From: Algoriphagus ratkowskyi
GTDB taxonomy: Bacteria > Bacteroidota > Bacteroidia > Cytophagales > Cyclobacteriaceae
Assembly: GCF_002150505.1 (NCBI RefSeq)
Contig: NZ_MSSV01000004.1
Span: 124,001-188,000 of the forward strand
Reading direction: 5' to 3'
Length of the DNA: 64,000 nucleotides
Shown: positions 16,462 through 42,947 of the stretch, in pieces
Numbering within the stretch: the stretch's first letter is position 1
Layout of the letters: each line of letters begins with the position of its first letter
Notes under the pieces: model-generated
Seen by the model: the letters and a program-made list of their open reading frames with translations, nothing else
The model's database searches: none
Told to the model about the DNA's origin: nothing
Made by a program: the position numbers and the translations under genes

Positions 16462-16492
16462 AAAAAAAGCACTCGAATTGTCGAGTGCTTTT
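16462..16492 (-). terminator. Intrinsic terminator of the haloperoxidase-like gene
   Basis: The hairpin AAAGCACTCGA-caat-TCGAGTGCTTT, read on the minus strand, is followed by a T run. It sits a few bases past the stop codon of the haloperoxidase-like gene and is the probable end of the whole minus-strand SusCD-linked unit. Confidence 0.9.
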
Positions 16493-16496
16493 AGGT

Positions 16497-17837
16497 TTAG
16501 TTTGTAGCTACGTTTTTGGGTTTGGTATCCACCTTTGTCCAGATGTAAGCAGCTATATCTCTACCTCCTGTGATGCCATATTCAATAGCAGGCCGATAGT
16601 GGATTCCGCCATAGAATCTGCTAAGTGCAGCTTCTTCAGCGGCTTGAGAAAATGAATCAAACTCCCGAATTGGCAGTCCATAAGCAACTTCCGAACTATC
16701 TACGATATGAAACTCGTCTCCAAAGAGTTGAGCTAATGTATAAGCTGCTGCTGCAGAAGCGACGCTATGCCCACTTGTATGTTCAGGAAAAGGAGGTGTC
16801 TGCAATAGTGGCACCCACTGCTCATCGATGTGTTGATTGATATAAGTTTCAGGTCGAATAAGCTTGCTTCGGTATTTCTCATCCCAACAAGAAATGAAGG
16901 CTTCATTAAGTGAGATCCCAGTCAAAGCGAAAACTTCTGCGACTCCTTTCCAATCTCTTCCATCTGCCTTAGAGACTATCGCGGCGATACTCATCCAGTG
17001 TCCACCAGGCGTGATTTTCTTTTCAGCGAACATGACATGTCCTTTCACATTCATTTTATATGGATTGCAATCCCAGAATAATGCAGTCTCTTTTTGCTCC
17101 TTAGTAGCCGCGATGTCCATATCATAAACTTCTTTGGCAACTTTGAAAAACTTACTGTTAGGATCTGTGGAGAATGGAGGAGGAGGTAGTGGCTTGAATT
17201 GAGAGGCTGAATCAAGTACAAAAGTTCTGATTTTATTCCAGTGTGGTTCTATTGCTTCCATGTACGCCGGCGGCGTAGGTTGCCAAGTTCCTTCTTCACC
17301 TGTCACGGTGAATTTAGGAAAAGAGCGACTTTGATGATAATTGTCTTTGGAAGAATAAGCTTTGATCGCATCACCTACTTCTTTGCCGAAGGCCACTGAT
17401 GCCTCGAATACTTCACTTGGAATCCCCTTCTTTTTCAAAGTAGCAAACGTAGCATCTCTATGCTCATTCATCATTTCTTCGGAAAAGATCATTGCTGTAC
17501 CCACATAATAATAGGCTGCTAGTGAGGCGAGAGGTGGATATACTTTTTCGGAAGGTTTGAAGCTGGTTTTCTCCGATCCATTTAACTGCCCCATAAGAGA
17601 TACGTAATTTGGATCGACAGAAGCTGCTACTTCATAGGCAGCAAGGGATGCATAAGTATAGATTCTCGCAGCCACAGGTGGGGAGAAAATATCGTGAATG
17701 ATCACTTCCGTGATTCTGTCCTGTGCTTCGTTAATGTATTGACCATCAGTGATGGCTTCGGAATAATCTACGGGTTCTGCACAAGAAACAGCAATCAGGA
17801 GAATTCCTGAAAAAAGCATGAATTTGAGGTTACGCAT
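16497..17837 (-). CDS. Vanadium-dependent haloperoxidase / PAP2-fold lipoprotein
   Basis: A 446-residue protein with a lipoprotein signal (lipobox near residue 19, AVSC), so exported and lipid-anchored. It belongs to the vanadium haloperoxidase/PAP2 acid phosphatase fold. All oxyanion-binding residues are present with canonical spacing: Lys321-x6-Arg328-Pro, Ser355-Gly356-His357, and Arg407-x5-His413. The Asp that follows the last His in phosphatases and chloroperoxidase (HxxxD) is Ala417 here. Either vanadate-dependent halide oxidation or phosphate-ester hydrolysis is possible; sequence alone does not decide. It is the last gene of the cluster, 122 bases after the first UnbV/VCBS gene, with a strong terminator behind it. 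Homologues next to VCBS/UnbV genes recur in Bacteroidota from what I know of such genomes. Confidence 0.85.
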   Translation of the reverse strand: MRNLKFMLFSGILLIAVSCAEPVDYSEAITDGQYINEAQDRITEVIIHDIFSPPVAARIYTYASLAAYEVAASVDPNYVSLMGQLNGSEKTSFKPSEKVYPPLASLAAYYYVGTAMIFSEEMMNEHRDATFATLKKKGIPSEVFEASVAFGKEVGDAIKAYSSKDNYHQSRSFPKFTVTGEEGTWQPTPPAYMEAIEPHWNKIRTFVLDSASQFKPLPPPPFSTDPNSKFFKVAKEVYDMDIAATKEQKETALFWDCNPYKMNVKGHVMFAEKKITPGGHWMSIAAIVSKADGRDWKGVAEVFALTGISLNEAFISCWDEKYRSKLIRPETYINQHIDEQWVPLLQTPPFPEHTSGHSVASAAAAYTLAQLFGDEFHIVDSSEVAYGLPIREFDSFSQAAEEAALSRFYGGIHYRPAIEYGITGGRDIAAYIWTKVDTKPKNVATN

Positions 17838-17959
17838 AGCTATGGTGTGATTTTTAATGTTTTGAGCTTGAAATAGAGGCGATGCTAATGGGAGCGGATT
17901 TCAAGTCCCTTGTATTTGGAGCCTAAAGCTATTGGAAATTAAGCAAGTATCCAATGATA

Positions 17960-20900
17960 TTAGTCAAGTTTGATCCAGTAAAGAGGTCCTGAGTTGCTTG
18001 CAGCTACTCTGTAATTGTTGCCATTTACTCTAATTGTAGAGAGATTTCTTATTTCAGATTTGGAAGGAATAGTATTGCCAAAATTGATCGAAGTCCAGGC
18101 ATTTTCTTTCCAATGAAATGAGCCAAAAGCAGAAGCCAAATTTGTTCCAAGGTCAACCCGAAAGCCTGAGAAATTTCCTCCAAGAAAAACTGACTTTTTG
18201 GATTCATCCCAGCTCACAGAGAAAATAGGGGAGAGTTGTGATTGATCGGGAAAAGGCTCATAAACATAACTTCCATCTGTCTGTTGGAGATAGGCGCCGG
18301 ACCGGAATTCGTAGGCAGCTTGTTTGGTTATCTTCGCTAAGGTGGCATCTTCAAATAAATCTGTTGGGCGAGCTTTCTCAGCATAAATCTGGTAAGAAGA
18401 ATGCTTTCTTTTGATTGCGGGGATTTGCTTAATCAGTTCATCTCTGGATGCAAACGGAACCAGCTGATCTCCCATGTAATGAAAGATGATAGGATCTGCC
18501 TGGCCATTTTCATCGAAATCTCCATGATAAAGCCAAACTGGCTTTTCCTGTGATGCTTTTAATTTACTATTTAGTCCGAGGTTTCCTGTTAGAATGTCCA
18601 ATTTCCCATCACCGTTGACGTCGGCAACTGCAAGACTTTGAATCCATCCGGCCGAATATTCCAGACCTGACATCGCTTGCTCTTGAAGTTTTTTTCCATT
18701 GATAATTTCAAATATTCTGATTCCCTGCCAATCTCCTGTGAAGATTAAACTGCTTATTCTATTGCCATTCAAATCTGCCCAGACGGCAGAATTGACCATA
18801 CCGAAGTCAATATCAGTTCCAAACCATTCCTTGGTTTTATCCTGAAATGTTCCATTGCCTTGATTGATTAACAATACACTTTTTGGGCTTGCCCCATAGT
18901 CTCCACTTACTACTGAGCTTCCTACGAAAATATCCAAATCACCATCTCCATCTACATCGTGAATAGCAAGAGTAGAGGTGTTTTCACCTAATCGAGGAAG
19001 TGACATAGGGCTGAATAGGAAGTCTCCTTTTCCATTCCCAAAGAAAATTCTATCAAATTTGAAAAGCGCACCGCTCAAATGTTCATTTCCTCCACTCCCT
19101 ACATAGAGGTCAAGATGCCCGTCTCCATTGAGGTCAGCAAAGGCAGCGATCACGTCTTCTGCTCGCGCAAATTGTGCGAAAATCTCACTCTTTTTCTCTA
19201 GAAAGGTCCCATCTATGTTTTGCAGAAATAAGGTCCCACTTTGATCCTTCGCTCCGCCTAGATAAATATCATCGAGTCCATCTCCATTCACATCTCCCAC
19301 AGCTACAGCTGGGCCCATGCTTGCAAAGCTTTTTGGGATCAAATACTCTCGCTTCGTTTCATCCAGTGTATTTGTCTCCTGATGTGTCCAAGAGATTTCT
19401 GGATAAAAAGTTGCCTCTTTACTTCTGATGGCGGTTTTACTAGCTGTTTTTCCTTCCCCTTGATTAAGGGTGAATGTTTGGTTAATGGATTTTTTAAGGA
19501 AAACCTCTTCCGTTCCATCTGGCCAGTTTACAGAGATTGAGTCTAGTGCAAGTGCTTTTCCCAACCCAAAAACCAGCGTGGAGGCAGTGCCGGAAAGAAA
19601 TCCTCTAGTACCGGAATACTGCTGGAATAAAGATTTCCCTGCGAAATATACGCCGACTTTGGCACCCATTCCGAAGGTATTATTGCCTTTAGCTTTGAGA
19701 TTAATTCGGAGGAACGAATTGCCTGATTTCTCCGAGTGATTTTGATAGATAAATGCGGGTTGATTTAGGTTATTGATGATCAAGTCTAAATCTCCGTCAT
19801 TGTCAAGATCTGCATAGGTGGAGCCGTTGGAGTAACTTGGTTGATCCAATCCCCAGTTTATCGCCTGATCAGAGAACTGTAAGTTGCCCTGATTTTGAAA
19901 GCTAAGATTTGGTAGCTTGACGGTTGGCAGTAGGTTGATTTGATTCTCGAGGAGCTCTTTTCTAGTGAGTTTAGGATCGGCCTGCTGACTGTACTGAATA
20001 AAGTCCAGGTCGTTTGGACGTTTCTCTATGCCATTGGTGATGTGGATGTCCGCCAAGCCATCATTGTCCATATCAAAAATCAAAGGTGACCAACTCCAGT
20101 CAGAAGCGTAAACCTCGGAAAATAATGCGATTTCAGAAAAGCCATTTTCACCCTGATTAAGTTGAAGGTGGTTTCGTACATATTGATCAGCATAGCCAAA
20201 TTGTTTTTTTATCTCATAAACTTCGGCTTTGTCTTCTCCCACAGATTTCATCCAAATTTCAGGATCTCGTGGAAGCATATCAGTGGTGAAAATCTCAGGT
20301 AAACCATCTCCGTTCAAATCTGCCAAGTCATTTCCCATACTGTATCGGGAAGTGCTGGAGACCAAGCTTTCCAGAGATTCTTTAAATGTGCCGTCTTGCA
20401 GATTCAGGTAGAGGTAATCGTTCTCCGTGAAGTCATTGGATACATAGATATCAGGCCAACCGTCACCGTTCACGTCTTCAACTCCTACGCCTAGACCGAA
20501 ACCTAGTATGCTCGAGTAAATTCCGGAGGATTCTGTGACGTCTTCAAAACCAGTTTTACCTTCAGAAAGTAGGTTTTTAAATAATTTATCGCCCAATTGA
20601 TTTGGCTCATTTCTTTGATTTGCTCGTGCAAAAACCTCTGGAGATTTCACGGAATGATTTAGCAAATACATATCTAAATCCCCATCACGATCATAGTCCA
20701 GAAATGCTGCTTGGGTGCCAAAACCAAAAAAATCTACTCCATAAACGCTGGCTTGATCTTCAAACTTATTCTCTCCCTGATTTATATAGAGACGATTTTT
20801 TCCGACTAACCCTTTGTAATTACCTACCTGAGAAACGTAGATATCCAACAATCCATCTCCATTCACATCCGCCATCGTGACTCCTGAGGACCAGCCACCT

Positions 20901-21226
20901 TCGCCGCTCACTCCTGCAGATTCGGAAATGTCTTCAAACTGGAAATTGCCTTTATTTAAATATAGTCGATTGGATACTTGATTTCCTGCGAAATACAAAT
21001 CCACCAAACCATCGTTGTTAATATCACCAGCAGCGACTCCACCGCCATTATAGAAATAGAGGTATTCCAGGATATTCAGTGAATCTGAAGAGATGAGGGT
21101 GTTTTCAAATGCTACACCAGTCTTTTCCGATGGCATTAACTCAAAAAGTGTGTCAGCTATTTTTTTCTCTTTGCAGGAAAAAAGAAGCCCAATTCCAATC
21201 AGAAAAGCAGTAGAAAATCTTTTCAT
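17960..21226 (-). CDS. Giant FG-GAP/VCBS-repeat lipoprotein with ASPIC/UnbV domain (copy 1)
   Basis: An 1,088-residue lipoprotein (lipobox Cys18) probably displayed at the outer membrane. Seven DxNxDGxxD-type FG-GAP/VCBS motifs (for example GDINNDGLVD, ADVNGDGLLD, LDYDRDGDLD) precede an ASPIC/UnbV domain at about residues 500-590 (RINLKAKGNNTFGMGAKVG to VNWPDGTEEVF). About five more motifs follow (GDVNGDGLDD, ADLNGDGHLD, HDVDGDGDLD, ADVNGDGKLD). Seven motifs suggest one seven-bladed beta-propeller before the ASPIC domain and a second propeller after it. The Asp/Asn-rich loops are calcium-binding-like. No catalytic motif is evident. It starts 1 base after the stop of copy 2, so the cluster is one operon. 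Binding or sensing a surface ligand is inference; CRTAC1-like proteins have no settled bacterial function. Confidence 0.88.
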   Translation of the reverse strand: MKRFSTAFLIGIGLLFSCKEKKIADTLFELMPSEKTGVAFENTLISSDSLNILEYLYFYNGGGVAAGDINNDGLVDLYFAGNQVSNRLYLNKGNFQFEDISESAGVSGEGGWSSGVTMADVNGDGLLDIYVSQVGNYKGLVGKNRLYINQGENKFEDQASVYGVDFFGFGTQAAFLDYDRDGDLDMYLLNHSVKSPEVFARANQRNEPNQLGDKLFKNLLSEGKTGFEDVTESSGIYSSILGFGLGVGVEDVNGDGWPDIYVSNDFTENDYLYLNLQDGTFKESLESLVSSTSRYSMGNDLADLNGDGLPEIFTTDMLPRDPEIWMKSVGEDKAEVYEIKKQFGYADQYVRNHLQLNQGENGFSEIALFSEVYASDWSWSPLIFDMDNDGLADIHITNGIEKRPNDLDFIQYSQQADPKLTRKELLENQINLLPTVKLPNLSFQNQGNLQFSDQAINWGLDQPSYSNGSTYADLDNDGDLDLIINNLNQPAFIYQNHSEKSGNSFLRINLKAKGNNTFGMGAKVGVYFAGKSLFQQYSGTRGFLSGTASTLVFGLGKALALDSISVNWPDGTEEVFLKKSINQTFTLNQGEGKTASKTAIRSKEATFYPEISWTHQETNTLDETKREYLIPKSFASMGPAVAVGDVNGDGLDDIYLGGAKDQSGTLFLQNIDGTFLEKKSEIFAQFARAEDVIAAFADLNGDGHLDLYVGSGGNEHLSGALFKFDRIFFGNGKGDFLFSPMSLPRLGENTSTLAIHDVDGDGDLDIFVGSSVVSGDYGASPKSVLLINQGNGTFQDKTKEWFGTDIDFGMVNSAVWADLNGNRISSLIFTGDWQGIRIFEIINGKKLQEQAMSGLEYSAGWIQSLAVADVNGDGKLDILTGNLGLNSKLKASQEKPVWLYHGDFDENGQADPIIFHYMGDQLVPFASRDELIKQIPAIKRKHSSYQIYAEKARPTDLFEDATLAKITKQAAYEFRSGAYLQQTDGSYVYEPFPDQSQLSPIFSVSWDESKKSVFLGGNFSGFRVDLGTNLASAFGSFHWKENAWTSINFGNTIPSKSEIRNLSTIRVNGNNYRVAASNSGPLYWIKLD

Positions 21227-21227
21227 T

Positions 21228-24200
21228 TTAGTATTTCCAAATTTCAGCAGCAGCAGAGTTTTTCACGACTAATAGCTTCCCTTTGCCCAACGATTCGAAC
21301 GCTCTGATATCACCATCTAACCGAAGTCCGTGTTGAGCATTTGGCCAATAGTCGAAGGTGCCGTCACCCTTGCCCAAAAGCACATCACCATAGCTCGCGT
21401 CGTATTTGCCTACTTCTGGCTTGGCCTGAAATAGATTTCCGCCAAGAATGAGGTCAAGCTTTCCATCGGCGTTCAAATCCAAAACCTCAATAGCAAAAAT
21501 ATAGGAACGCTGAGCCATCGTAGGAAAAGCTTTCCAGGTGAATTTGCCGTTACCCTCATTCATTAAAACACCAGAAGCAAGATTGTTCACTTCGCTCACT
21601 ATCGATTTATCTAATACCTCCTTTGGGAAAATATCCGTGAGTTTTTCGTTGTTGTAATTGCTGTAGCGCATGTACTTCTTTTTGATTGAAGGAATTTGAC
21701 GCTCTAGTTCATGCTTTAGCGTGTAGGGTATTTCTACTTCACCTTCTGTTCGTGTGAAAATATGCTCTACAGATCCATTCTGGTCAAAGTCGTTCAGGAA
21801 CATTTTGACTGGATTTGTTTCAGAAACTTTGAATCGTGAGTTCAATCCGTTATTTCCAAGTATCAAATCTGGCAAACCATTTCCGTCTAGGTCTGCTATC
21901 TCTATTGTTCGATACCAGCCTTTGAGGTTCTGCAGTTCAGGCATTTCAATTCTTTGAAGCTTGCCATCGGTGTTTCTCATGAAAATAGGAGCCAACCATT
22001 CACCAACAAGCACTAGGTCTTGTGTCCCGTCATTGTCCCAATCTACCACTTTGGCATCGGTGATCATCCCGATTTCTGTCAGTTCAGGTGCCAAAGTGGC
22101 TGTTTGATCCGTAAATTTTCCTTTACCATCATTGATCCAGATACTGCTGCTGGCAGGAGCTCCATATACGAATGGGACAAGTCTTCCTCCCACAAATAAA
22201 TCCGGAGCACCGTCCTTATTCAAATCCAAAACCTGAACTACGGAACTGCTTCCTCTATCCGAATCTAAGCCAGAATTCATGCTTTTGGTCAGATGTCCAT
22301 TACCATCATTGAGGTATAATCTATTGATCAGATCTGATGATGCCAAGCCTGATTCATTTCCACCGGAAACTACTAATAAATCCAGTTTCCCATCTGAATT
22401 AGCATCGAAAAAAACAGCGTCAGTATCTTCTGAGATCGCATCCTGAGCAAAATCAGGTTGGGTAGTTAGTTGGTATTTTCCACCCACAGTACCCAAGTAG
22501 AGTTGTGCTTCAAATCCTTTGGCTCCGCCAAAAAACAAATCTGCTATCCCATCCCCATTTACATCTCCTCTGACAAAAGCAGGACCTTCTGTAGAATACA
22601 TGTGGAAGGTCAGACGATCTCGATCAAAGTCCACCATCAAGTTTTCTTCATGGGTAAATGAAATGGAAGAATTTTCCTCTTTGGAAAAGAAGGGTTTTTT
22701 GGGTTTGGAGAAAAACTCGAAATCTGCTTCAGGAGCCGTGGCGTCTTGCCATTTCAAGGTCAATAATTGGTCCAGTGAAGGGTTGTATATCCTGGTCACC
22801 AAGCCATCCGGCCAGAGTACAGCTAACTCGTCTATCTGTTTTGCCTCGCCCAGCCCAACCGTAAGCTTAGGGTCAACCGAAGATTGGAATCCTCTATTAG
22901 GCATTTGCTCTTGATAGAATAGCTGATCACCTGAGATGATCCGAACTTGGGTACCGATGGCATTTGTATTTAAACCTTTGCCTTGAAGTGCTAGCTGAAT
23001 AAAGTGTCTATCAGAATGAAGGCTTCGCCCGTTATTTCTAAATATTTGTGCTGTATTATTTACATTATTTACCACCAAATCTAGCTGACCGTCGTTGTTC
23101 AGATCCCCATAAGCAGCTCCGTTGGAATGGATTTTTTCTCCGATTCCCCATTCCTCCGCTTTGTCAGTAAACTGTAAATCTCCTTGATTCTGAAATGCAA
23201 AATTTGAAATTGGATTGACCGGAATGGGGTCTATGAGGGCTTTGTAGTTTACCCCTTCCTCGGTGATGATCTTTCGCTTAGTCTCTTCATCATTGATGAA
23301 ATTCAAGTAATCCAAATCTGTGATATCCTGATAGATTCCATTGGCTACGAAAATATCCCGCTTGCCATCATTGTCCATGTCAAACAGTAAAGCGCCCCAG
23401 CTCCAGTCAGTTGCTTCTACATTGGCGAGTCTTCCCATTTCACTGAAAGTTCCATCTCCATTGTTGATATGAAGTGCATTTCGGGAATACTGGTAGTGAT
23501 AACCGTGGGATTTGTTGAATTGAAATTTATCCCAATTTTCAAAGGTGGTTACCTGCTTTAATCTCGTTTCTGATCGAGGAAGCATGTCAGTGACGAAGAT
23601 GTCCAAAAGCCCATCGCCATTCATGTCGCCGATATCTGCGCCCATGGAAGCTGCGCTTGTGGATCGCATAGCAGTTTCCAATGACTCGGAAAATGTGCCG
23701 TCTTGGTTATTGATGTACAAATAGTCTCTTTCGAAAAAGTCGTTGGAAATAAAGATATCTGGCCAAGAATCCTGATTGATATCTCCGATGGTGATCCCTA
23801 AGCCAAATCCTATGATAGATCCATAAATACCGGCTTCTTCACTTACGTCAACAAAATGACCTCCTTCATTTTTGTATAACTTATCACCTCCGACAGGATC
23901 TCGCTTTGGGCGCTCATTCTGCATTTTATTAAAGCTTCCAATTGCCGTATAGCTATTGTTGAGCAGATAGACGTCCAAATCTCCGTCTTTGTCATAGTCG
24001 AAAAATACGGCGTGGGTAGAAAATCCCTGATCAGCTAAGCCAAAAGCTTCGGCTTCTTCGGAGAACGTACCATCTCCTTTATTGATGAAAAGCTCATTTT
24101 GTTTGTTGTCCCCCGAGATATCTCCAGAGTTACATACATATATATCGAGATAACCGTCGCCATTTACATCTGCCATTGCCACACCTGTGCTCCAAGCGCG

Positions 24201-24527
24201 TGTGCCTGCTACTCCAGCTGCTTCTGTGACGTCTTCAAATTTGAAATTACCTTTGTTCAGGTAAAGTTTATTAGGAAGGAGATTGGCAGTTAAGTAAATA
24301 TCTGCGAGCCCATCACCATTTACATCACCAATCGCTACTCCACCGCCGTTATAAAAGTTGCGATATGTAAAGACATTAAAAGCTTCATCAAATACAAGAT
24401 CATTTCGAAAAGCTACCCCTGTCGAATCTGTGGGTAATGATTGGAAGAGAGTAGGAGTCTTAGGCTTGGAATTGTCCTGACAGGAGAATAAAACAATACT
24501 AAGTCCCAATGCTAGTAAGATTCTCAT
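21228..24527 (-). CDS. Giant FG-GAP/VCBS-repeat lipoprotein with ASPIC/UnbV domain (copy 2)
   Basis: A 1,099-residue paralogue of the neighbouring genes, with lipobox Cys16 (VLFSC). It has the same plan: the conserved N-terminal block NFYNGGGVAIGDVNGDG, seven FG-GAP/VCBS motifs, ASPIC/UnbV at about 505-595 (LALQGKGLNTNAIGTQV to VLWPDGLVTRIY), then six further motifs (GDVNGDGIAD, FDANSDGKLD, LDLNKDGAPD, VDWDNDGTQD, ADLDGNGLPD, LDLNADGKLD). Its start overlaps the stop of the small lipoprotein gene by 4 bases (ATGA), a strong sign of translational coupling. Overall divergence from copies 1 and 3 shows an old duplication, not a recent one. Confidence 0.88.
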   Translation of the reverse strand: MRILLALGLSIVLFSCQDNSKPKTPTLFQSLPTDSTGVAFRNDLVFDEAFNVFTYRNFYNGGGVAIGDVNGDGLADIYLTANLLPNKLYLNKGNFKFEDVTEAAGVAGTRAWSTGVAMADVNGDGYLDIYVCNSGDISGDNKQNELFINKGDGTFSEEAEAFGLADQGFSTHAVFFDYDKDGDLDVYLLNNSYTAIGSFNKMQNERPKRDPVGGDKLYKNEGGHFVDVSEEAGIYGSIIGFGLGITIGDINQDSWPDIFISNDFFERDYLYINNQDGTFSESLETAMRSTSAASMGADIGDMNGDGLLDIFVTDMLPRSETRLKQVTTFENWDKFQFNKSHGYHYQYSRNALHINNGDGTFSEMGRLANVEATDWSWGALLFDMDNDGKRDIFVANGIYQDITDLDYLNFINDEETKRKIITEEGVNYKALIDPIPVNPISNFAFQNQGDLQFTDKAEEWGIGEKIHSNGAAYGDLNNDGQLDLVVNNVNNTAQIFRNNGRSLHSDRHFIQLALQGKGLNTNAIGTQVRIISGDQLFYQEQMPNRGFQSSVDPKLTVGLGEAKQIDELAVLWPDGLVTRIYNPSLDQLLTLKWQDATAPEADFEFFSKPKKPFFSKEENSSISFTHEENLMVDFDRDRLTFHMYSTEGPAFVRGDVNGDGIADLFFGGAKGFEAQLYLGTVGGKYQLTTQPDFAQDAISEDTDAVFFDANSDGKLDLLVVSGGNESGLASSDLINRLYLNDGNGHLTKSMNSGLDSDRGSSSVVQVLDLNKDGAPDLFVGGRLVPFVYGAPASSSIWINDGKGKFTDQTATLAPELTEIGMITDAKVVDWDNDGTQDLVLVGEWLAPIFMRNTDGKLQRIEMPELQNLKGWYRTIEIADLDGNGLPDLILGNNGLNSRFKVSETNPVKMFLNDFDQNGSVEHIFTRTEGEVEIPYTLKHELERQIPSIKKKYMRYSNYNNEKLTDIFPKEVLDKSIVSEVNNLASGVLMNEGNGKFTWKAFPTMAQRSYIFAIEVLDLNADGKLDLILGGNLFQAKPEVGKYDASYGDVLLGKGDGTFDYWPNAQHGLRLDGDIRAFESLGKGKLLVVKNSAAAEIWKY

Positions 24528-25096
24528 AACTCGTTTGGATCTAAACTTTTTTGGATGGGGAGATCCACGATTTCTGCTCTGACGCTAGAAATAGATTTAT
24601 TAAATAAGCGAATTCTCCTATTACCATCCATTTTGATATAGGCAATCTGAGAACGGTCTTCACTGGCTACTTCTATAAACCCTGCGCCATACCATTTTTC
24701 AAAAAGCGCGACAACATCGATCCTCAATTTTTCAACACTTAATTCTTCATTCCATAGCGCCCAACTTTCATAGTTGAATTCCACAGGCATCAGATATATT
24801 TTCTCCTCCTTAAATTTTGGATAAAAACGCATTTTTGCTGAATTGCCTGAGGGCATCTCCACGTTGTATTCTACCGAAAGCTCTGTTGGTCCATTTGAAA
24901 GAATGCCCTCTTTATTCAAGTCCCAGCAGACTTCATAGAAAGATTTCTTATCCATACCTAGTTCTAGACCCAAGAACAAGTCATTATGAATTTCTCCAGA
25001 TTCTAGCGCTTTTGACTCCATCTTCTGATAATCAGATTTACAAGAAAATAGAAGCAATGCAAAAACTACTAAGATTGATTTATTAATGAACTTCAT
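24524..25096 (-). CDS. Small lipoprotein of unknown function within the VCBS cluster
   Basis: A 190-residue protein that I do not recognise. ATG at 25096 (MKFINKS) is preferred over a start 7 codons earlier because it directly gives a compact lipoprotein signal with lipobox Cys19 (LLFSC). The remainder is soluble and mixed alpha/beta in appearance, with no FG-GAP motif; notable segments are LELGMDKKSFYEVCWDLNKEG and IRLFNKSISSVRAEIVDLP. The gene overlaps the upstream VCBS gene by 14 bases and the downstream one by 4, so it is locked into the operon. Its position suggests an accessory partner or folding factor for the large lipoproteins; this is inference. Confidence 0.75.
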   Translation of the reverse strand: MKFINKSILVVFALLLFSCKSDYQKMESKALESGEIHNDLFLGLELGMDKKSFYEVCWDLNKEGILSNGPTELSVEYNVEMPSGNSAKMRFYPKFKEEKIYLMPVEFNYESWALWNEELSVEKLRIDVVALFEKWYGAGFIEVASEDRSQIAYIKMDGNRRIRLFNKSISSVRAEIVDLPIQKSLDPNEL

Positions 25097-28000
25097 AGAT
25101 AATTGCGTTGTCATCATTTTTTAATATGAGTAGTTGGTCGGAAGAATGGATGGTGAAAGGCAGGATAGTTCTGATTTCACCTGAGACAAATAGGCCACTT
25201 TCTTTAGGCAACATGAGTTGCCAATTTTTGGATGAGTCCTGTTTGAGACTCCACCCAAAACTCCCCATCTGACTTCCTAATTCTGGTTTTATTCTACTTT
25301 TATTTCCACCAAATATAAGGATTGGTTCTCCGTTTTTGTTTTTAATCAGGGCAATGGCATAGACTGGAGCGTACTGTATTTCCTTGGGTAAGGCTTGTAT
25401 TGAAAAGCGGGAATCTTCGCCATTGATCCAGCATGTGGTTTGAAGGGTTTCTGCTGTCAAAATTATTGATTTCTCCAAAACCTCAGGTGGGAATAAGTCT
25501 TGCAGAGTTTTGTCTTGGTAGGAGGCATAAGTTGGTAATTGCTTGCGCAGCGAAGGTATTTGCTTGACTAGGGTGTTTTTCATTAGGAGTGGTGTAGCTC
25601 CAGTGGAGGAAGTGTTTACGAGGATGTGATCAATGGTCGCATTCTGATCAAAATCATTGACATAGAGTTCCAGTTGTTTCTCAGGAGTTGATCTAATTCT
25701 TGAATTCAATCCCCAATTCCCGCCGATTATATCAGGTTTTCCATCTGCATTGATGTCCTCGACGAGCAGGGTATTCCAAAGTCCACTCGTATTTGCAAAA
25801 CCAAACGCTTCTGTTTTTTCTACAAAATTCATGTTGCTCCAGGTAAAAATCCGGATGGGCATCCATTCCCCTGCTACTATTAATTCTGGATTTCCATCTT
25901 GGTCAAGATCTGCCCATTTTCCATCTGTAAGCATTCCCAGACTTTTGACAATCGGATTGAGGGTTTCTGTAATATCTTTATAATTGCCTGATCCGTCATT
26001 TATCATCACTACAATCCCCACAGGGATGCCATATGCAAACGGAATAGATCGCTGTCCTAAAATCAAATCTTTATCGCCATCTGAGTCAAGGTCCTCAGCA
26101 AGAATAAATGCGGTAGGAGTAGCTGGAAAATAAGTTTCTATTTTGTTCAAATTTCCTCTGCCATCATTGAGATAGAGGCGATCTTGGTATTGTGTGGCTC
26201 CAGCGGGAAATTCTATTCCCCCAGCTCCAATGATCAAATCCTTAAAACCATCGCCATTTGCATCAAAGAATAGACCGGTAATATCTTCCGAAAGCGAGTC
26301 GATTGCAAATAGCTCTTTTTGAAGTCTTATAAAGTCTCCATCATTCTTAAGTCCAAATAATTGAGAAGGTTGACCCTTGGCGCCAGGCATAAATAATTCG
26401 TCATTCCCATTGGAGTTGAGGTCTGCCCGTGCACCTTTTGGTCCCTCGTCACTGATCATCCAAAAACGCAATCTATCCCTATCAAAATCTATAAAGTTAC
26501 TTTCGTGATGCGAATAGCCTAGGCGATAGTTGGAAGTGGAGAAGGTGGCTTCGACGCTCTGCTTTTGAGCTAGCTTGGGAGTAGTGTTGATTTTTGTGGG
26601 TTTCAAAAGGGTATTTGTCGTAACTTTTTCCAAAGTAGTGACATTTCCATCCGGCCATTTTATAGTGACCGAATCCAATACCTGAATCTGGCCCAGTCCA
26701 AAATGGAGCTTTGGATCCACAGATGACATGTAGCCTTTGACAGGCTGAAATTCTTGATAAAATTCCAGTGATCCTGAATAGCAAGTTACCTGAGTTCCGA
26801 ACGCCTGTCCCAGATCCAATTGTAAGAAATTCCCTTTTTTAGTGTCTATAGTCGTGTTTTGATAGATGAAAGCAAAATCATTTAGATTATTGATGACCAA
26901 ATCCAGGTCGCCATCATTATCCAAATCTCCGTATGCAGATCCTGTGCTGAAGGTAGTTTGGGTTAATCCCTGGGCAGAAGCTTGATTGTCAAAACTCCAA
27001 TTTCCAAGGTTTTTGAACCAATAATTTTGTTGGGGATTTGATGGAAAAGCATCAATCATGGAAGTGAGTAGGATAGAGTCCTTTCTGAATCCCTCTATTT
27101 TTTCTTGATTGTTGACGTAGAAATCTACGAAGTCAAAATCCGTTAAATCCTTCACTATTCCATTTGCTACAAAGACATCCTTCAAACCGTCATTGTCTGC
27201 ATCAAAGATCAAAGCTCCCCAACTCCAATCAGTGGCTTCCATTTCTGTTTGTCTGGAAATCTCAGCAAAGATTGGTTGACCATCTATAGGACTTAAGCCA
27301 AGATTCCGCTGTAAGGTATTCCGGGTAAATTGTTGATGATAGCCAGCTTTGATGTTTGCTTGGTATTTGTCCCATTCTTCCAAAGGAGTTTTGGTTTTTA
27401 TTCGTGCTAAGGTATTCGGTAGCATTTCGGTGACAAAGATATCGGGTCTGGAATCATTGTCCAGATCAGCAATGTCTGCGCCCATGGATCCCATAGAAAT
27501 CTCAGATAGTAAATCAGGAAGTTTTTCTGTAAAGGTTCCGTCTTGATTATTTATGTAGAGATAATCACGCTCAAAAAAATCATTGGAAACGTAGAGATCT
27601 TGCCAAGAGTCATCATTGAGATCAGCCACAGTGACTCCAAGTCCATAGCCAATCGCACTACCAAAAATCCCAGCCGCTTCACTTACATCCGTAAAATGGT
27701 CTGTATCATTTCTGAATAATCGGTTACCTCCTTCTGGATCTCGTATTTCGCGCTGCCCCAAGCGCAGATCATATATGCCGACGGAACGGGGGGAATTGCT
27801 TAAAAGATAGAGATCAAGGTCACCATCTTTATCATAATCAAAAAAAATGGCATGCTGAGAAAGACCAATTTGATCCAATCCATACTTCTTAGATTCTTCT
27901 TTGAATGTGGTATTTCCCTGGTTAATAAATAGCTCGTTGTGTCTTTTTTCGCCTTCCAACGGACCAGATTTGCAAACAAAAATATCGGGAAGTCCATCTC

Positions 28001-28367
28001 CGTTAACATCTGCTATGCTTACTCCTGTGGACCAGATGTCATTGCTTTCTACTCCAGCTGCTTCGGTAATGTCTTTGAACTTGAGGTTTCCCTCATTGAG
28101 GTAAAGTTTGTTGGAGGTTTGATTTCCTGCCAGGAATATATCCAGCAAACCATCTTGATTAATATCTCCCAATGCTACTCCCGCGCCATTATAGAAATTC
28201 CGAAACGTATAAGGATTGATTTTCTCTGTATAGGCAAGGTCATTTTTAAAAAATATGCCTGTCTCTTCTGGTGTCAGCAGTTTGAAAAGTGTACTTGGAC
28301 TTGTATCCTCCTTGGTACAAGAGGAAAAGATTAGGGTAAGCAGTAGGAAATAGTTCCTAATTTTCAT
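25083..28367 (-). CDS. Giant FG-GAP/VCBS-repeat lipoprotein with ASPIC/UnbV domain (copy 3, operon-proximal)
   Basis: With ATG at 28367 the protein is 1,094 residues and begins with a clean lipoprotein signal (lipobox Cys17, FSSC); a start 9 codons further upstream would spoil it. Seven N-terminal motifs (GDINQDGLLD, ADVNGDGLPD, FDYDKDGDLD, and others) precede the ASPIC/UnbV domain at about 511-590, which is shortened at its start (LDLGQAFGTQV) relative to the other copies. At least five motifs follow (ADLNSNGNDE, FDANGDGFKD, EDLDSDGDKD, ADLDQDGNPE, EDINADGKPD). It is the first of the three after SusD and is separated from it by a terminator-like hairpin. Confidence 0.88.
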   Translation of the reverse strand: MKIRNYFLLLTLIFSSCTKEDTSPSTLFKLLTPEETGIFFKNDLAYTEKINPYTFRNFYNGAGVALGDINQDGLLDIFLAGNQTSNKLYLNEGNLKFKDITEAAGVESNDIWSTGVSIADVNGDGLPDIFVCKSGPLEGEKRHNELFINQGNTTFKEESKKYGLDQIGLSQHAIFFDYDKDGDLDLYLLSNSPRSVGIYDLRLGQREIRDPEGGNRLFRNDTDHFTDVSEAAGIFGSAIGYGLGVTVADLNDDSWQDLYVSNDFFERDYLYINNQDGTFTEKLPDLLSEISMGSMGADIADLDNDSRPDIFVTEMLPNTLARIKTKTPLEEWDKYQANIKAGYHQQFTRNTLQRNLGLSPIDGQPIFAEISRQTEMEATDWSWGALIFDADNDGLKDVFVANGIVKDLTDFDFVDFYVNNQEKIEGFRKDSILLTSMIDAFPSNPQQNYWFKNLGNWSFDNQASAQGLTQTTFSTGSAYGDLDNDGDLDLVINNLNDFAFIYQNTTIDTKKGNFLQLDLGQAFGTQVTCYSGSLEFYQEFQPVKGYMSSVDPKLHFGLGQIQVLDSVTIKWPDGNVTTLEKVTTNTLLKPTKINTTPKLAQKQSVEATFSTSNYRLGYSHHESNFIDFDRDRLRFWMISDEGPKGARADLNSNGNDELFMPGAKGQPSQLFGLKNDGDFIRLQKELFAIDSLSEDITGLFFDANGDGFKDLIIGAGGIEFPAGATQYQDRLYLNDGRGNLNKIETYFPATPTAFILAEDLDSDGDKDLILGQRSIPFAYGIPVGIVVMINDGSGNYKDITETLNPIVKSLGMLTDGKWADLDQDGNPELIVAGEWMPIRIFTWSNMNFVEKTEAFGFANTSGLWNTLLVEDINADGKPDIIGGNWGLNSRIRSTPEKQLELYVNDFDQNATIDHILVNTSSTGATPLLMKNTLVKQIPSLRKQLPTYASYQDKTLQDLFPPEVLEKSIILTAETLQTTCWINGEDSRFSIQALPKEIQYAPVYAIALIKNKNGEPILIFGGNKSRIKPELGSQMGSFGWSLKQDSSKNWQLMLPKESGLFVSGEIRTILPFTIHSSDQLLILKNDDNAIIYEVH

Positions 28368-28378
28368 GATTATTTGAC

Positions 28379-28408
28379 AAAAAAGGAAGTGCACCTAAGC
28401 GCACTTCC
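28379..28408 (-). terminator. Hairpin with T run between susD-like and VCBS genes (attenuator or terminator)
   Basis: On the minus strand an 8-base perfect stem, GGAAGTGC...GCACTTCC, with an 8-base loop is followed by TTTTTTG. It lies about 26 bases past the SusD stop and 11 bases before the start of the first VCBS gene. It would lower expression of the downstream lipoproteins relative to SusC/SusD. Confidence 0.8.
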
Positions 28409-28434
28409 TGTCAATAATTTTAATTTAAAACCTA

Positions 28435-29925
28435 TTAATAACCAGGATTCTGGGTCAGGTTAGGGTTAGCGTTGATTTGCTGTAATGGAATTGGGAACAG
28501 TCCTCTGAAAGGTTGAGATGCACCCTTTTCCCACCAAGGTTGATTGAATTTACCAAATCTAATCTGATCTGATCTTCTTATTCCTTCTGCAAAGAATTCG
28601 AAACCTCTTTCATTGTAAATATCATCCGCGCTGATTGATGCAAGTGCAGGCAAGGAAGCTCTTGTTCTGACTTGGTTCAATGCAGCCAAAGCTTCTGAAT
28701 TTTTACCTTGTCTGAACGCTGCCTCAGCTTTGATCAAGATGATATCTGCTAATCTGATCAGCACATAATCATTACTTAGGCTAGATCCAGCACCTGTAGC
28801 ATATTCGTACTTGGCTACTCTTGCTCCAGCTTGTCTGAATGCATTTGGACTGAGCTCATTTATTTTAGGAGTGAACGTAAGTGGTTGTCCATCGGGATCA
28901 CCTGGTTCAGCAGAGATGTCATTTAGACGAGTGCCGTCTGCGGCGAATTGTGGGCCTACCAAGAAACTTGCTTTACGCACGTCATTATCATCGAACTTGT
29001 TATAGAACTCTTCCAATGAAGCGTATCCATTCCATGGCTGCTCTTGTAGATTAAACGTGTTCTGACTTAAGTAATGTAAAGTCATTTGCGCTAAATTAAA
29101 TCCTCCCGCATTATTTTGATCATAAGGAAGTGTCAAAATATTTTCAGTAGAACCCCCATTTCTGGTAGAGAAATTACTGAAAAAATTGAATGATAGAGAA
29201 TACACACCGCTGTTGATTACCTCATTAGCTGCTGCTTCTGCATCGGCCCATCTTGGAGTACCAGTATAGACTTCTGCATTTATGTACAGCTTAGCAAGCA
29301 TCGCTTTGGCGGTGTAATAATTCATTGTAGTCTTGGAGTCTTTTTTCTCTAACAAATCAATGTTGTCTAAAATAGAACTCTCAATAAAAGCGAATACTTC
29401 CTTACGAGTATTATTAGTTGGGTTTCCTCCTGTTGATGTTTCAGTTATGATAGGAACATTTCCAAAGGCATCAATCAACCATAGATAAGGTAATGCACGC
29501 AATACTTTAAGCTCAGCTACCAATAATTCTACATCAGGGAATGATATGATCAAGTTATTAATTTCACCCACTGCAGTGAAGCAATAGTTCCAGCTGTTAT
29601 TGAACGCTTCTTCTGAAGGCCCCCATGTATGTCTGTGAATTCTTAGCCAAAGGCCTCCATCTTCCCAGTCAGCACCTTTTTGAGGGATTGCCATTTCGTC
29701 AGACGCTACTTCATGGATTGCCCATATACCGTTGTGTGCACCCCAACCTCCTACAATTCTAGAATATGCTGAAGCTTTCAACACGTTAATCAATTGAGGA
29801 TTAGTGCTATTGGCTACATCTTGGGGGGTTACTCCATCCAGGACTTCCTGGTCTAGTTCCCAGCATGATCCCAGCAGCAATAAAGCTGGTACCATGACAC
29901 AAATTTTACTTATATATTTTAACAT
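28435..29925 (-). CDS. RagB/SusD-family nutrient-uptake lipoprotein
   Basis: A 496-residue outer-membrane lipoprotein (lipobox Cys21, LLGSC) that serves as the substrate-binding lid on its SusC partner. The SusD fold is recognised by its N-terminal helical region (NNSWNYCFTAVGEINNLI, then AELKVLRALPYLWLIDAFGNVP near residue 150) and the C-terminal segment DDIYNERGFEFFAEGIRRSDQIRFGKF. The family ending with PIPLQQINANPNLTQNPGY is intact. It follows SusC after 19 bases. SusC/SusD pairs import oligosaccharides or other oligomers; the ligand cannot be deduced, and no carbohydrate-active enzyme sits nearby. Confidence 0.95.
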   Translation of the reverse strand: MLKYISKICVMVPALLLLGSCWELDQEVLDGVTPQDVANSTNPQLINVLKASAYSRIVGGWGAHNGIWAIHEVASDEMAIPQKGADWEDGGLWLRIHRHTWGPSEEAFNNSWNYCFTAVGEINNLIISFPDVELLVAELKVLRALPYLWLIDAFGNVPIITETSTGGNPTNNTRKEVFAFIESSILDNIDLLEKKDSKTTMNYYTAKAMLAKLYINAEVYTGTPRWADAEAAANEVINSGVYSLSFNFFSNFSTRNGGSTENILTLPYDQNNAGGFNLAQMTLHYLSQNTFNLQEQPWNGYASLEEFYNKFDDNDVRKASFLVGPQFAADGTRLNDISAEPGDPDGQPLTFTPKINELSPNAFRQAGARVAKYEYATGAGSSLSNDYVLIRLADIILIKAEAAFRQGKNSEALAALNQVRTRASLPALASISADDIYNERGFEFFAEGIRRSDQIRFGKFNQPWWEKGASQPFRGLFPIPLQQINANPNLTQNPGY

Positions 29926-29944
29926 ATCTCTGTAGTTAAATTTA

Positions 29945-32938
29945 TTATTTGAAATTGGCAGTTACTCCTAGCGTGAATGATCTAGTCTGGAAATATGTGT
30001 TTCTTCTTTCAATACCCGGAGATAAAGATGTCGTAAACCCATTCCCGTTTTCAGCATCTGTAAGTCTGATTTCGGGATCAATACCGGTGTAATCTGTGAT
30101 GGTGAATAGATTTTGGGCTGCAAAATAAACTCTGAATGAATTCAAATTACTGCCTGGGGTATTAAATTTATAACCCAATTCTAAGTTGTCCAATCTGATG
30201 AACGAACCGTTCTCAAGATAAGAACTGTTGAAGGTAGGAGTAGATGTTACCAATGGTGACGTTGGAGTTTTGTCAGTTACGACTGAGTTCCAAGTGTTAG
30301 ATGCTCCATCAGCATTTTCGTAGAATCCTCTATAGGAGTTGTACAAATCATATCCCCAAGCTCCTCTGAAGAAGAAGCTAAGATTCCATCCACCCCATCC
30401 AAAGTTGTTGGCAAGTCCAAATTCACCCTTTGGAAGGCCATTACCTAATTTCTCGTATTCGTTTGGATCATCAGTAGATAGGATATATTGCCCATCTTCC
30501 GTATAACCAAGTAGCTTAGGACCGTAGAAATCACCCAATGTTTGACCAACTCTGTTGTAGATGATAGGATTGTTATTTTGACCAGGAGATCCTGGTGTAG
30601 CAAATCTTAATTCATCAAATCCCAATTCTCCAGCAGATAAGCTTTCGATAGTAGTCTTGTCATAGATGGTGAAGTTCATTCCTGGACTCCAGGAAAGAGG
30701 GCCCAATTTGATGTTGTTTGCATTAACAGCAAATTCAAATCCTGCAGCTCTAAGGTCTGCCAAGTTTACCCAAGTGGATGATGCAGTGTTGAATCTTCCT
30801 GGGTCAAATGGATTTGGTGCTCCTGTAGCTACTGGTACGTTAAAAAGAAGATCAGAAATGTTTCTAACATAGTAATCTATAGCTCCAGTCACTTTGTTGT
30901 TCCACATGCCGAAATCCACACCGAAGTTAATTTCTTGCTTAGTCTCCCACTTTAGGTCTTTGTTAGGATTAGAATTCTGCACAATACCTACAAACACATC
31001 ATTCTGTGTAAGTGGATCTCCATCTAGATCTATTCTATTTCCGTTTCCATAAGCTCCCAACGCCAATGTAGGTGATGGAGGAAGGTTACCTGTGATACCG
31101 AATGATGCTCTAGGTTTGAACGTGCTAAAGACTCCCATGTCAAATAGCTGAGTAAAATCAGCACCCACACTTAATCCAGGGAAAACACCAGTTTGATTGT
31201 TTTCACCAAATCCAGAGTAAGTCTCCGCTCTTACAGATGCAGAGAAAAATATTTTGTTGTCCCAATTGAAATTCGCTCTACCAAAAAGAGAATTAAGCTG
31301 ATCTTCATTTGCGAAAGAAGCTACATCCGTATTATTACCTAATCGGATAGCACCTGCACCTAGATTGTTCCATCCTAAGTCAAATAGATATTGTCTCACT
31401 CTAGCATTGAATCCTTGAGAAAAGGATTTTTGGGTAGCTGCTCCACCCAATAGCGTCATGTTCAATTTGTCTGATACGTCTAACTCATATCTCAAGGTAG
31501 TTTCGAAAATCTTCTGCGAACGGTCAAAAGTTCTTCTTTGAGCTGATCCACCGGCTCCCAAACCTACTTGGAAATCCTGTCTGGACCAGAAGTCACCTGA
31601 AAGATTGTTATTTCTGTCTTCTGAATACTGTGCTGAGATAGTCAAGTTAGTAAGGATGTCATACTCAGCTCTGTAAGAAGTCAAAGATGATTTATTCGTA
31701 CCATTGAATTTCTGCTGATTAGCTAATGCTACTGGATTATAGAAATCAAACAAATCTCGCTGGAAGTAACCGCCAAATCTCTCGTTTGCAGCTGGAGTGT
31801 TTTCAAAAACTGGTGCTGTAGGATTATAAAGTGTAGCGTATCTGAAAGCTGCATCGTTGATGTTTTCGTAATCTACATTTGTGAATGATAGATTGACGTT
31901 GAATCTCAATTTGTTGTTAAATGCGCCTTGAGAAAGATTGATTCTTGTATTTAGTCTCTTATTCGATACGCCATTCACGATACCTTGATTATCACGATAA
32001 TTGACTGATGCCATATAATTAGTGTTTTCGAATCCTCCAGAAACACTAGCATTGGTGGTATATGAGTAGGCATCATCGATCAATTCTTGCCTCCAATCAG
32101 TATCACTACCGAAGTCTGTGCCACCCCTTGCTACAAACTCGTCTGCAGAAAGAATCGGGATTAGATTAGTCGCTTGGTTCATTGTACCAAAAGCATTGAT
32201 GGATACGTCAGCTCTCCCTTGCTTACTACCCTTTTTTGTGGTTGTAATTAAAATTACCCCAGATGAACCTCTAGCTCCGTAGATTGCGGCAGCGGAACCA
32301 TCCTTCAATACGTCGATGGATTGAATGTCATTCGGATCTACGTTGTCCAGATTTGCTCCGATTACTCCATCTAATACAATAAGAGGAGAAGAGTTAGCTC
32401 CGAAGGTAGAAAGACCTCGCAATCTTACATTAAAGCCCCCGTTAGGATTACCTCCTGGTCTAGTTACTGAAAGACCAGCAACTTTACCCTGTAGTAATTG
32501 AGCCGGATTAGAGATGTTACCTTTGTTAAAATCTTCTGGTTTTACTGATATCACAGCGGAGGTCAATTCCTTTTTATCTTGAGATCCGTAGCCAATAACC
32601 ACAGCTTCCTCTAGACTTTGAATATCCTCTTCTAGATTTATAGTAATTTCAGTTTGATTTCCGATTTCTACTTCCTGGACAATATATCCAACGAAAGAAA
32701 TGACAAGTACCTGATCATTTGGCTGTAGGTCGAGGGAAAACTTCCCATCTAAATCTGTGGAAGTTCCACGAGTAGTACCTTTGATCAGGACAGTAGCTCC
32801 TGGTACAGATTCTCCAAGGATAGGATCCATGACTGTACCAGTCACAGTTCTACTTTGGGCGTTAGCTACGAGAGTGGCGCAGAAAATTAGCGCCAAGGCA
32901 AGTAGAAACGTTTTTTGTTTTAGTAAATAGTTTCTCAT
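29945..32938 (-). CDS. SusC/RagA-family TonB-dependent outer-membrane transporter
   Basis: A 997-residue TonB-dependent receptor using ATG at 32938 (MRNYLLKQK); the frame extends 11 codons upstream, but the shorter form starts directly with a signal peptide (residues ~1-27, ending VANAQ). Residues ~30-115 are the carboxypeptidase-regulatory-like domain found in SusC proteins (TVTGTVMDP to INLEED). The plug follows (VVIGYGSQDKKELTSAV, then LRGLSTFGANSSPLIVLDG), and the rest is the beta-barrel, ending in aromatic-type FTLGVTANFK. It heads the minus-strand cluster. Import energy comes from TonB-ExbBD, which are not encoded here. No sigma/anti-sigma pair or hybrid two-component sensor adjoins it. 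Confidence 0.96.
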   Translation of the reverse strand: MRNYLLKQKTFLLALALIFCATLVANAQSRTVTGTVMDPILGESVPGATVLIKGTTRGTSTDLDGKFSLDLQPNDQVLVISFVGYIVQEVEIGNQTEITINLEEDIQSLEEAVVIGYGSQDKKELTSAVISVKPEDFNKGNISNPAQLLQGKVAGLSVTRPGGNPNGGFNVRLRGLSTFGANSSPLIVLDGVIGANLDNVDPNDIQSIDVLKDGSAAAIYGARGSSGVILITTTKKGSKQGRADVSINAFGTMNQATNLIPILSADEFVARGGTDFGSDTDWRQELIDDAYSYTTNASVSGGFENTNYMASVNYRDNQGIVNGVSNKRLNTRINLSQGAFNNKLRFNVNLSFTNVDYENINDAAFRYATLYNPTAPVFENTPAANERFGGYFQRDLFDFYNPVALANQQKFNGTNKSSLTSYRAEYDILTNLTISAQYSEDRNNNLSGDFWSRQDFQVGLGAGGSAQRRTFDRSQKIFETTLRYELDVSDKLNMTLLGGAATQKSFSQGFNARVRQYLFDLGWNNLGAGAIRLGNNTDVASFANEDQLNSLFGRANFNWDNKIFFSASVRAETYSGFGENNQTGVFPGLSVGADFTQLFDMGVFSTFKPRASFGITGNLPPSPTLALGAYGNGNRIDLDGDPLTQNDVFVGIVQNSNPNKDLKWETKQEINFGVDFGMWNNKVTGAIDYYVRNISDLLFNVPVATGAPNPFDPGRFNTASSTWVNLADLRAAGFEFAVNANNIKLGPLSWSPGMNFTIYDKTTIESLSAGELGFDELRFATPGSPGQNNNPIIYNRVGQTLGDFYGPKLLGYTEDGQYILSTDDPNEYEKLGNGLPKGEFGLANNFGWGGWNLSFFFRGAWGYDLYNSYRGFYENADGASNTWNSVVTDKTPTSPLVTSTPTFNSSYLENGSFIRLDNLELGYKFNTPGSNLNSFRVYFAAQNLFTITDYTGIDPEIRLTDAENGNGFTTSLSPGIERRNTYFQTRSFTLGVTANFK

Positions 32939-42738: not shown

Positions 42739-42766
42739 TCTTCAATCACTGATTGACTATTTATAC

Positions 42767-42804
42767 AATGCGATCCCGAATTATTTTGGGATCGCATTTG
42801 TTTC
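42767..42804 (+). terminator. Terminator after tuf
   Basis: AATGCGATCCC...GGGATCGCATT forms an 11-base stem followed by TGTTTCTT. Its 3' arm overlaps the -33 element of the next promoter, so the two units are packed back to back. Confidence 0.85.
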
Positions 42805-42828
42805 TTAAGCAATCAATACCTAATTTTG
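42797..42828 (+). promoter_or_regulatory. Promoter of the tRNA-Trp-secE-nusG-rpl operon
   Basis: A -33 TTTG (42797-42800) and -7 TAATTTTG (42821-42828) with a 20-base spacer, 28 bases upstream of tRNA-Trp. The -33 lies inside the 3' half of the tuf terminator. Confidence 0.8.
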
Positions 42829-42856
42829 CGTTCCCATTAGCGGAGCGTTCATTTAC

Positions 42857-42930
42857 ACGGGCATAGTTCAACGGCAGAATAGCGGTCTCCAAAACCGTTG
42901 ATGGGAGTTCGAATCTCTCTGCCCGTGCCA
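42857..42930 (+). tRNA. tRNA-Trp (anticodon CCA), 3' CCA encoded
   Basis: Acceptor ACGGGCA pairs with TGCCCGT; anticodon loop CTCCAAA gives CCA; T arm GGAGTTCGAATCTC. Unlike the three tRNAs upstream, the 3'-CCA end (42928-42930) is encoded. It precedes secE by 17 bases, the order found in many bacteria. Confidence 0.95.
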
Positions 42931-42947
42931 AGTAAGTTAAGTACACT

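Follow-up and report, generated by a model that had tools for sequence, protein, structure and literature searches.

The locus described here has three close counterparts among known systems. Polysaccharide utilization loci, such as the trehalose-like alpha-1,1-glucan loci of North Sea Flavobacteriia, consist of a SusC-SusD pair followed by co-oriented surface lipoproteins, and PMC6298971 reports that the clustering of SusC/D follows substrate; the words FG-GAP, VCBS, and peroxidase have zero occurrences in the main text of that paper. The second counterpart is ZgVIPO1 of Zobellia galactanivorans (4CIT/4USZ), a marine flavobacterial vanadium iodoperoxidase whose crystal structure is known and whose physiological role is not settled in the portion of the literature available; in PMC9296495, the Zobellia iodoperoxidase vIPO3 is induced with a brown alga compared to alginate. 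The third is mouse CRTAC1 (9etn), in which an FG-GAP calcium-loop propeller is followed by an UnbV domain.

In the window, the whole 64,000-nucleotide stretch of Algoriphagus ratkowskyi DNA that was analyzed, we identified a seven-gene operon that is a variant of a Sus-type uptake locus, not a new kind of system. Its features and two neighboring genes are as follows.

29945-32938, minus strand: SusC/RagA TonB-linked outer-membrane importer (997 aa, ATG at 32938; TIGR04056, E 2.8e-182)
28435-29925, minus strand: SusD/RagB lipoprotein lid (496 aa; PF07980, E 3e-26)
28384-28409, minus strand: terminator-like hairpin at the SusD/UnbV1 junction (11-bp stem, T tail)
25083-28367, minus strand: UnbV1, FG-GAP/ASPIC-UnbV lipoprotein, double propeller by homology (1094 aa; FG-GAP_3 and UnbV_ASPIC above cut-off; Cys17)
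24524-25096, minus strand: small lipoprotein without a Pfam family (190 aa)
21228-24527, minus strand: UnbV2, predicted CRTAC1-like double-propeller lipoprotein (1099 aa; FG-GAP_3 and UnbV_ASPIC above cut-off)
17960-21226, minus strand: UnbV3, FG-GAP/ASPIC-UnbV lipoprotein, double propeller by homology (1088 aa; FG-GAP_3 and UnbV_ASPIC above cut-off; Cys18)
16497-17837, minus strand: VHPO, predicted vanadium-iodoperoxidase-type lipoprotein (446 aa; PAP2 PF01569, 28.4 bits against a cut-off of 27.2)
16465-16492, minus strand: intrinsic-terminator-like hairpin 3' of the VHPO gene (12-bp stem)
14146-16320, minus strand: bifunctional trehalose-6-phosphate (T6P) synthase/phosphatase, a neighbor probably outside the operon (NF011071, E 1.7e-301, with a query that began 3 bases 5' of the ATG)
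10595-12376, plus strand: GH15 protein with a trehalase-like N-terminal domain, a neighbor (family search)

Open reading frames and Pfam/NCBIfam profiles place all seven genes on the minus strand in the order SusC, SusD, UnbV1, small lipoprotein, UnbV2, UnbV3, and VHPO; together with a hairpin scan they confirm the seven co-oriented genes and end terminator of a first-pass annotation of this DNA. Gaps of 19 and 67 bases separate SusC from SusD and SusD from UnbV1, the small lipoprotein gene overlaps UnbV1 by 14 bases and UnbV2 by 4, and gaps of 1 and 122 bases precede UnbV3 and VHPO, respectively. Each of the six proteins encoded 3' of SusC has a lipobox-like Cys between residues 16 and 21. 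The nearest solved relative of SusC is 8aa4, a "SusC homolog" (E 1.8e-83). Compared to a polysaccharide utilization locus in the strict sense, the operon has the adjacent SusC/SusD pair and lacks both carbohydrate-active enzymes (none was found in the seven genes by Pfam/NCBIfam) and a linked sensor or regulator: no operon gene encodes a regulator, and the divergent upstream gene belongs to DUF5686. Where such loci have glycoside hydrolases, lyases, peptidases, or regulators, this operon has propellers and a peroxidase instead. An exact TTTG/TAnnTTTG search upstream of SusC returned zero promoter sites.

The product of the last gene is predicted by homology to be an iodoperoxidase-type enzyme, which probably oxidizes iodide or bromide. 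In a PDB search its residues 13-438 matched the Zobellia vanadium haloperoxidase 4CIT/4USZ at E 5.2e-143 and every other match was at E 0.19 or worse, so that VHPO combines full-chain homology to a biochemically defined enzyme with the same active-site motifs. The vanadate-site Lys, Arg, Ser-Gly-His, Arg, and His (K321, R328, S355-G356-H357, R407, and H413), assigned by motif with reference to the fungal enzyme, are invariant in 17 of 17 aligned sequences, the window's included. Depending on the position, 162 to 176 of 176 homologs, many of them close kin, retain them. VHPO lacks the third motif of PAP2 acid phosphatases, HxxxD, with Ala417 at the Asp position. An Asp four residues past the last catalytic His is also missing in 170 of the 176 homologs, as in ZgVIPO, and is present in all 6 of the lowest scoring (6/176, by a bit-score split that differs from the division of loci into strong and weak used below). 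We take this Asp to be a mark of phosphatases that haloperoxidases of other groups may also carry; it is a weak discriminator, since the six carriers may themselves be haloperoxidases. The first-pass annotation had called VHPO a "redox or phosphatase enzyme," which the 4CIT/4USZ match narrows to a relative of the vanadium iodoperoxidases, with the missing Asp as a weaker hint against a phosphatase. Compared to ZgVIPO1, the closer Cyclobacteriaceae homologs show about 50-55% identity.

Each of the three large lipoproteins carries FG-GAP repeats and an UnbV domain above cut-off, as expected of the ASPIC/UnbV family, with 13, 14, and 12 DxDxDxxxD calcium-loop motifs in UnbV1, UnbV2, and UnbV3, respectively, which suggests that they are loaded with calcium. 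The CRTAC1-like propeller fold was tested on the predicted model of UnbV2 alone (pLDDT 87.6, pTM 0.88), for which the top Foldseek match in the PDB was mouse CRTAC1 9etn (E 2.8e-28, TM 0.72 over the CRTAC1 chain), and UnbV2 is accordingly predicted to be a CRTAC1-like double propeller. UnbV1 and UnbV3, with 43% and 38% identity to UnbV2, would be double propellers by homology. The UnbV profile also matches integrin alpha propellers, chiefly in its second half. Compared to mouse CRTAC1, the bacterial proteins differ in being lipoproteins, in carrying a second propeller past the UnbV domain, and in occurring in sets of up to three. The small lipoprotein yields a confident alpha/beta model (pLDDT 87.8) that matched zero PDB folds at E <= 0.001; across 43 scored cases, its gene lies between two UnbV genes in 37 and between SusD and UnbV in 6.

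This gene set is real and widely conserved. Among the named loci, the best 80 of 142 relatives from one peroxidase scan whose design favors close kin, a co-oriented UnbV gene stands directly upstream of the peroxidase gene in 72 of the 77 that have their upstream side present. A survey of 247 genomes of the class Bacteroidia recovered a peroxidase homolog at E 1e-20 in 46 (97 matches) and UnbV in 118; UnbV is present in 44 of the 46 peroxidase genomes versus 74 of the 201 without the enzyme (Fisher p 2e-14, relatedness ignored). Of the 97 matches, we examined the surroundings of 80, leaving out 2 of the window genome, 3 that were either fragmentary or next to a match already taken, and the 12 weakest. 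In the best 54 of these (strong loci), which span 25 genera with UnbV present in 19, a co-oriented UnbV gene is found at 45 and SusD at 33; in the other 26 (weak loci, with distant homologs) the numbers are 1 (3 on either strand) and 1. Within the Flavobacteriaceae, 176 of 397 genomes encode the enzyme at E 1e-40, and 20 loci picked down the ranking, among the matches listed, have UnbV at 16 and SusD at 12. As a control, SusD occurs at only 1 of 20 UnbV places picked among the matches listed in peroxidase-free genomes, with the limits that many of these UnbV proteins differ in size class, that one place (L197) shows none by the UnbV model used, and that the control stretches reach 10 kb to each side versus 13.5 and 6.5 kb for the peroxidase loci. 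In the host genome, 6 of 6 UnbV_ASPIC matches adjoin a SusD or peroxidase gene. The neighborhood survey supports the earlier proposal of a conserved uptake or surface-processing unit built of SusCD, propeller lipoproteins, and a vanadate-type enzyme, which recurs across species; adjacency in this strain only, the pattern that would have undone that proposal, is refuted by the recurrence in both named and class-wide loci. We found no description of the gene set in the literature searched (titles, starts of abstracts, and passages; the 2014 Zobellia iodoperoxidase paper lay outside it).

The first-pass annotation found no recognized degradative enzyme among the accessory proteins and inferred a ligand recognized by the propeller proteins. 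The lack of degradative enzymes holds for the operon and is misleading as a guide, because it is local: like polysaccharide utilization loci, the operon's relatives carry glycoside hydrolases and regulators. At least 33 of 75 loci contain a co-oriented glycoside hydrolase, sulfatase-like, or xylose gene (glycoside hydrolase or sulfatase-like in 24, xylose in 10) and 42 show none, the former being a lower bound because only some families were modeled, with models from single sequences. The families recovered by Pfam/NCBIfam are GH65, trehalase, GH29, GH3, GH2, GH35, GH5, GH30, GH43, GH13, GH97, and GH26, along with a xylose isomerase match above cut-off and a sulfatase-like protein whose match to an arylsulfatase model (E 4.6e-44) fell below the cut-off of that model. 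The secreted GH65 of relatives resembles the solved enzyme 7fe3 (E 6e-238), which we take to be the Flavobacterium kojibiose hydrolase FjGH65A. Some relatives also encode regulators, of the LacI (above cut-off), ROK-like (NCBIfam, below cut-off), and ECF/FecR-like (by eye) types. Two genomes with peroxidases 99% (L206) and 88% (L207) identical to 4CIT are probably Zobellia, judging from that identity. In the former, three UnbV genes lie directly upstream of the 99%-identical enzyme (L166, L206), as in the window. In the latter, SusCD is divergent from genes for LacI, beta-phosphoglucomutase, GH65 (nearest to maltose phosphorylase), and GH13, with the UnbV genes ~2 kb off; the same arrangement in the former lies ~11 kb from its UnbV genes, past an insertion. 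The window differs in that SusCD and the three UnbV genes are contiguous and sugar-catabolism genes are absent. Since relatives' loci hold glycoside hydrolases and sugar-catabolism genes, we read the window operon as a polysaccharide-utilization variant that is probably sugar related and not as a system for an unknown class of ligand, and we dropped the idea of a non-carbohydrate system drawn from the absence of carbohydrate-active enzymes, which part of the relatives do possess; missing glycanases beside SusCD need not imply a non-carbohydrate ligand. In nine of the 20 Flavobacteriaceae loci (L168-L175 and L177), genes for xylose isomerase and an FGGY kinase are placed close to SusD and the UnbV or peroxidase genes or in between them, and a sodium:solute symporter gene often accompanies them.

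A tree of 65 SusD sequences, built without those of L002 and L061 and without any shorter than 430 aa, placed the window's SusD in a 30-member clade (support 97/97). Labeling loci alpha when GH65, trehalase, GH13, or GH97 occurred anywhere in the stretch, this clade holds 8 of 8 alpha, 3 of 3 xylose, and 0 of 13 beta loci, with 18 rows unlabeled, and a single change on the tree parts alpha and xylose from beta. Taxonomy alone does not account for this pattern, because an alpha locus and a beta locus occur together in each of five genomes (G106, G135, G183, G205, and G244). Membership in the clade is not enough to name the sugar, because L179, which has a mannan-type GH26 (labeled "none"), falls inside it and because four SusD rows have long branches, among them the alpha rows L134, which joins another long branch, and L183. 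The position of SusD in this clade makes a short alpha-glucoside that resembles trehalose, kojibiose, or maltose, or a conjugate of such a sugar, the most likely ligand. A search of the host genome (53 contigs, 4.98 Mb) for GH65 and GH37 trehalase found neither, so the alpha-glucoside enzymes of relatives are missing, and only its three GH13 matches and the neighboring GH15 protein could serve. Trehalose specifically, as the adjacent T6P synthase gene might suggest, was rejected: a terminator lies between, only 18 of the 80 named loci have the gene downstream of VHPO (in 3 of the 80 the downstream side shows no gene), and the host is without GH65 and GH37.

With moderate confidence, we propose from sequence comparison that this is a SusCD uptake operon, probably for a short alpha-glucoside, that carries a propeller and surface iodo/bromoperoxidase module. 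In this proposal, the SusC barrel and SusD lid would import the carbohydrate ligand, and three calcium-loaded CRTAC1-like propellers with the small lipoprotein, putatively at the surface, would capture the ligand or scaffold the complex, a job done elsewhere by SusE/F-type binding proteins. The terminal lipoprotein would use hydrogen peroxide to oxidize iodide, and perhaps bromide, beside the importer. What the oxidation would serve is a guess, with peroxide removal, local hypohalite against competitors, and oxidation of an aglycone as the options. The role is probably generic and not the cleavage of one linkage, because the enzyme is found with loci for different sugars and because UnbV-VHPO pairs also occur without co-oriented SusC/D (16/75). 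Linking the peroxidase to SusCD and CRTAC1-like propellers offers a concrete hypothesis for such enzymes, that of an accessory to carbohydrate uptake, and it assigns a likely partner to the UnbV double propellers, a very large and little-described family (further literature around this mechanism: PMC12871659, PMC8490876, PMC11871015, PMC10643221, and PMC11697453).

The strongest competing explanation is that the UnbV and VHPO genes form a separate oxidative or antagonistic module that tends to insert behind SusCD and plays no part in uptake, which we regard as unlikely. The module is separable, because 13 of 75 peroxidase loci have no co-oriented UnbV gene and the 16 of 75 noted above have UnbV without co-oriented SusC/D, at least L130, L136, L166, L172, and L174 among these being truncated by the end of the stretch or contig. 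The host genome has a second UnbV-peroxidase pair (contig C1, L083 4292-11611), flanked by genes for a ROK-like regulator and a sulfatase-like protein (named after NCBIfam matches below cut-offs), and in the genome nearest to 4CIT the ~11-kb insertion comes between SusCD and the UnbV genes. Against such independence, SusD is co-oriented in 33 of the 54 strong loci, and distance matrices from 41 loci agree best for SusD and VHPO (r 0.45, a value reached by 0 of 500 permutations, without correction for relatedness), compared to weak agreement between VHPO and the nearest UnbV (r 0.27) and r 0.09 between UnbV and SusD (63 of 500 permutations as high).

The hairpin at 28384-28409, on which the first-pass annotation was silent, could also be taken to favor an inserted module, as it parts SusD from the UnbV and VHPO genes. 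A scan of the region found 15 terminator-like sites versus a mean of 13.8 in shuffles, and because shuffles give similar numbers, this hairpin and the one after VHPO are singled out by position and strength only. Terminator-like hairpins recur at the corresponding junction in other loci, in 44 of 51 cases between SusD and UnbV, 5 of 6 between SusD and the small lipoprotein, and 10 of 12 between SusD and another gene (59/69 in total), compared to 0 of 61 SusC-SusD, 1 of 91 UnbV-UnbV, 1 of 41 UnbV-small, 0 of 47 small-UnbV, and 2 of 122 UnbV-VHPO junctions, most of these controls having short gaps with little room for a hairpin. When only gaps of >= 40 bases are compared, the counts are 43 of 50 for SusD-UnbV versus 2 of 66 for UnbV-VHPO, 1 of 11 for UnbV-UnbV, and 93 of 539 for other genes. 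Because it follows SusD in most of the SusCD operons examined whatever gene comes next, the hairpin is not the mark of a foreign insert; it seems to be a widespread feature of SusCD operons, not peculiar to this system, that favors more importer than accessory protein, and it may partly uncouple UnbV/VHPO expression from SusCD. Hairpins of this post-SusD type may have been described before.

It is less probable still that the locus serves iodine scavenging, with the peroxidase making HOI/I2 at the surface for halogen uptake or storage and the sugar part as the source of reducing power or peroxide. VHPO is closest to an iodoperoxidase, and the 12-14 calcium-loop motifs in each UnbV protein are in keeping with the peroxide-driven iodine uptake of Arenibacter C-21, which needs glucose, oxygen, and calcium in an organism with at least five 4USZ relatives (PMC5064120). 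Against it, the named loci include organisms whose names indicate a lake, a soda lake, or trees as habitat, places that should offer little iodide, and no peroxide-making oxidase was seen among the identified neighbors, a set that mostly excludes the 51 singletons. We also know of no SusCD system that carries iodine species. An iodine specialism was dropped as the first choice, as host names suggest non-marine habitats. An equally improbable proposal makes VHPO a vanadium-free, PAP2-fold surface acid phosphatase that trims phosphorylated sugars ahead of SusCD import. The PAP2 domain, the adjacent T6P synthase/phosphatase gene, and the common evolutionary origin of vanadium haloperoxidases and acid phosphatases are in its favor; we dropped it as the first choice on the haloperoxidase match (E 5e-143, other PDB matches at 0.19 or worse) and, as a weak discriminator, the Asp missing from VHPO and 170 of 176 homologs. 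The most speculative idea, to which we give the lowest probability, is a sugar-driven halogen chemistry in which SusCD, calcium-loaded propellers, and iodoperoxidase would act as one machine at the surface, with the capture and oxidation of carbohydrate supplying the peroxide and feeding coupled to both iodide oxidation and iodine accumulation; if true, this operon family would underlie the iodine uptake of marine Flavobacteriaceae that depends on glucose, oxygen, and calcium.

Several further arrangements were observed around the peroxidase genes. Tandem peroxidase genes behind a single UnbV gene occur in 14 of the best 80 named loci, all within L063-L079 (Cyclobacterium and kin), where the upstream copy shares only about 36-42% identity with the window VHPO. 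A protein of ~300 aa with a GyrI-like domain is encoded directly 3' of the peroxidase gene in 11 of the 20 Flavobacteriaceae loci (L166-L181). The arrangement of the second host pair, with ROK-like, UnbV-peroxidase, and sulfatase-like genes, is shared by L105. Redox-type proteins lie within or beside the SusCD-UnbV-peroxidase operons of L098, L100, L103, and L097, comprising a family of 440-457 aa with sub-threshold cytochrome c and copper-monooxygenase matches, one redoxin, and one weak cytochrome c. Elsewhere in the window, positions 41551-60699 hold a housekeeping cluster of EF-Tu, NusG, L1, rpoB, rpoC, S12, EF-G, L3, and L2 (ten proteins searched).
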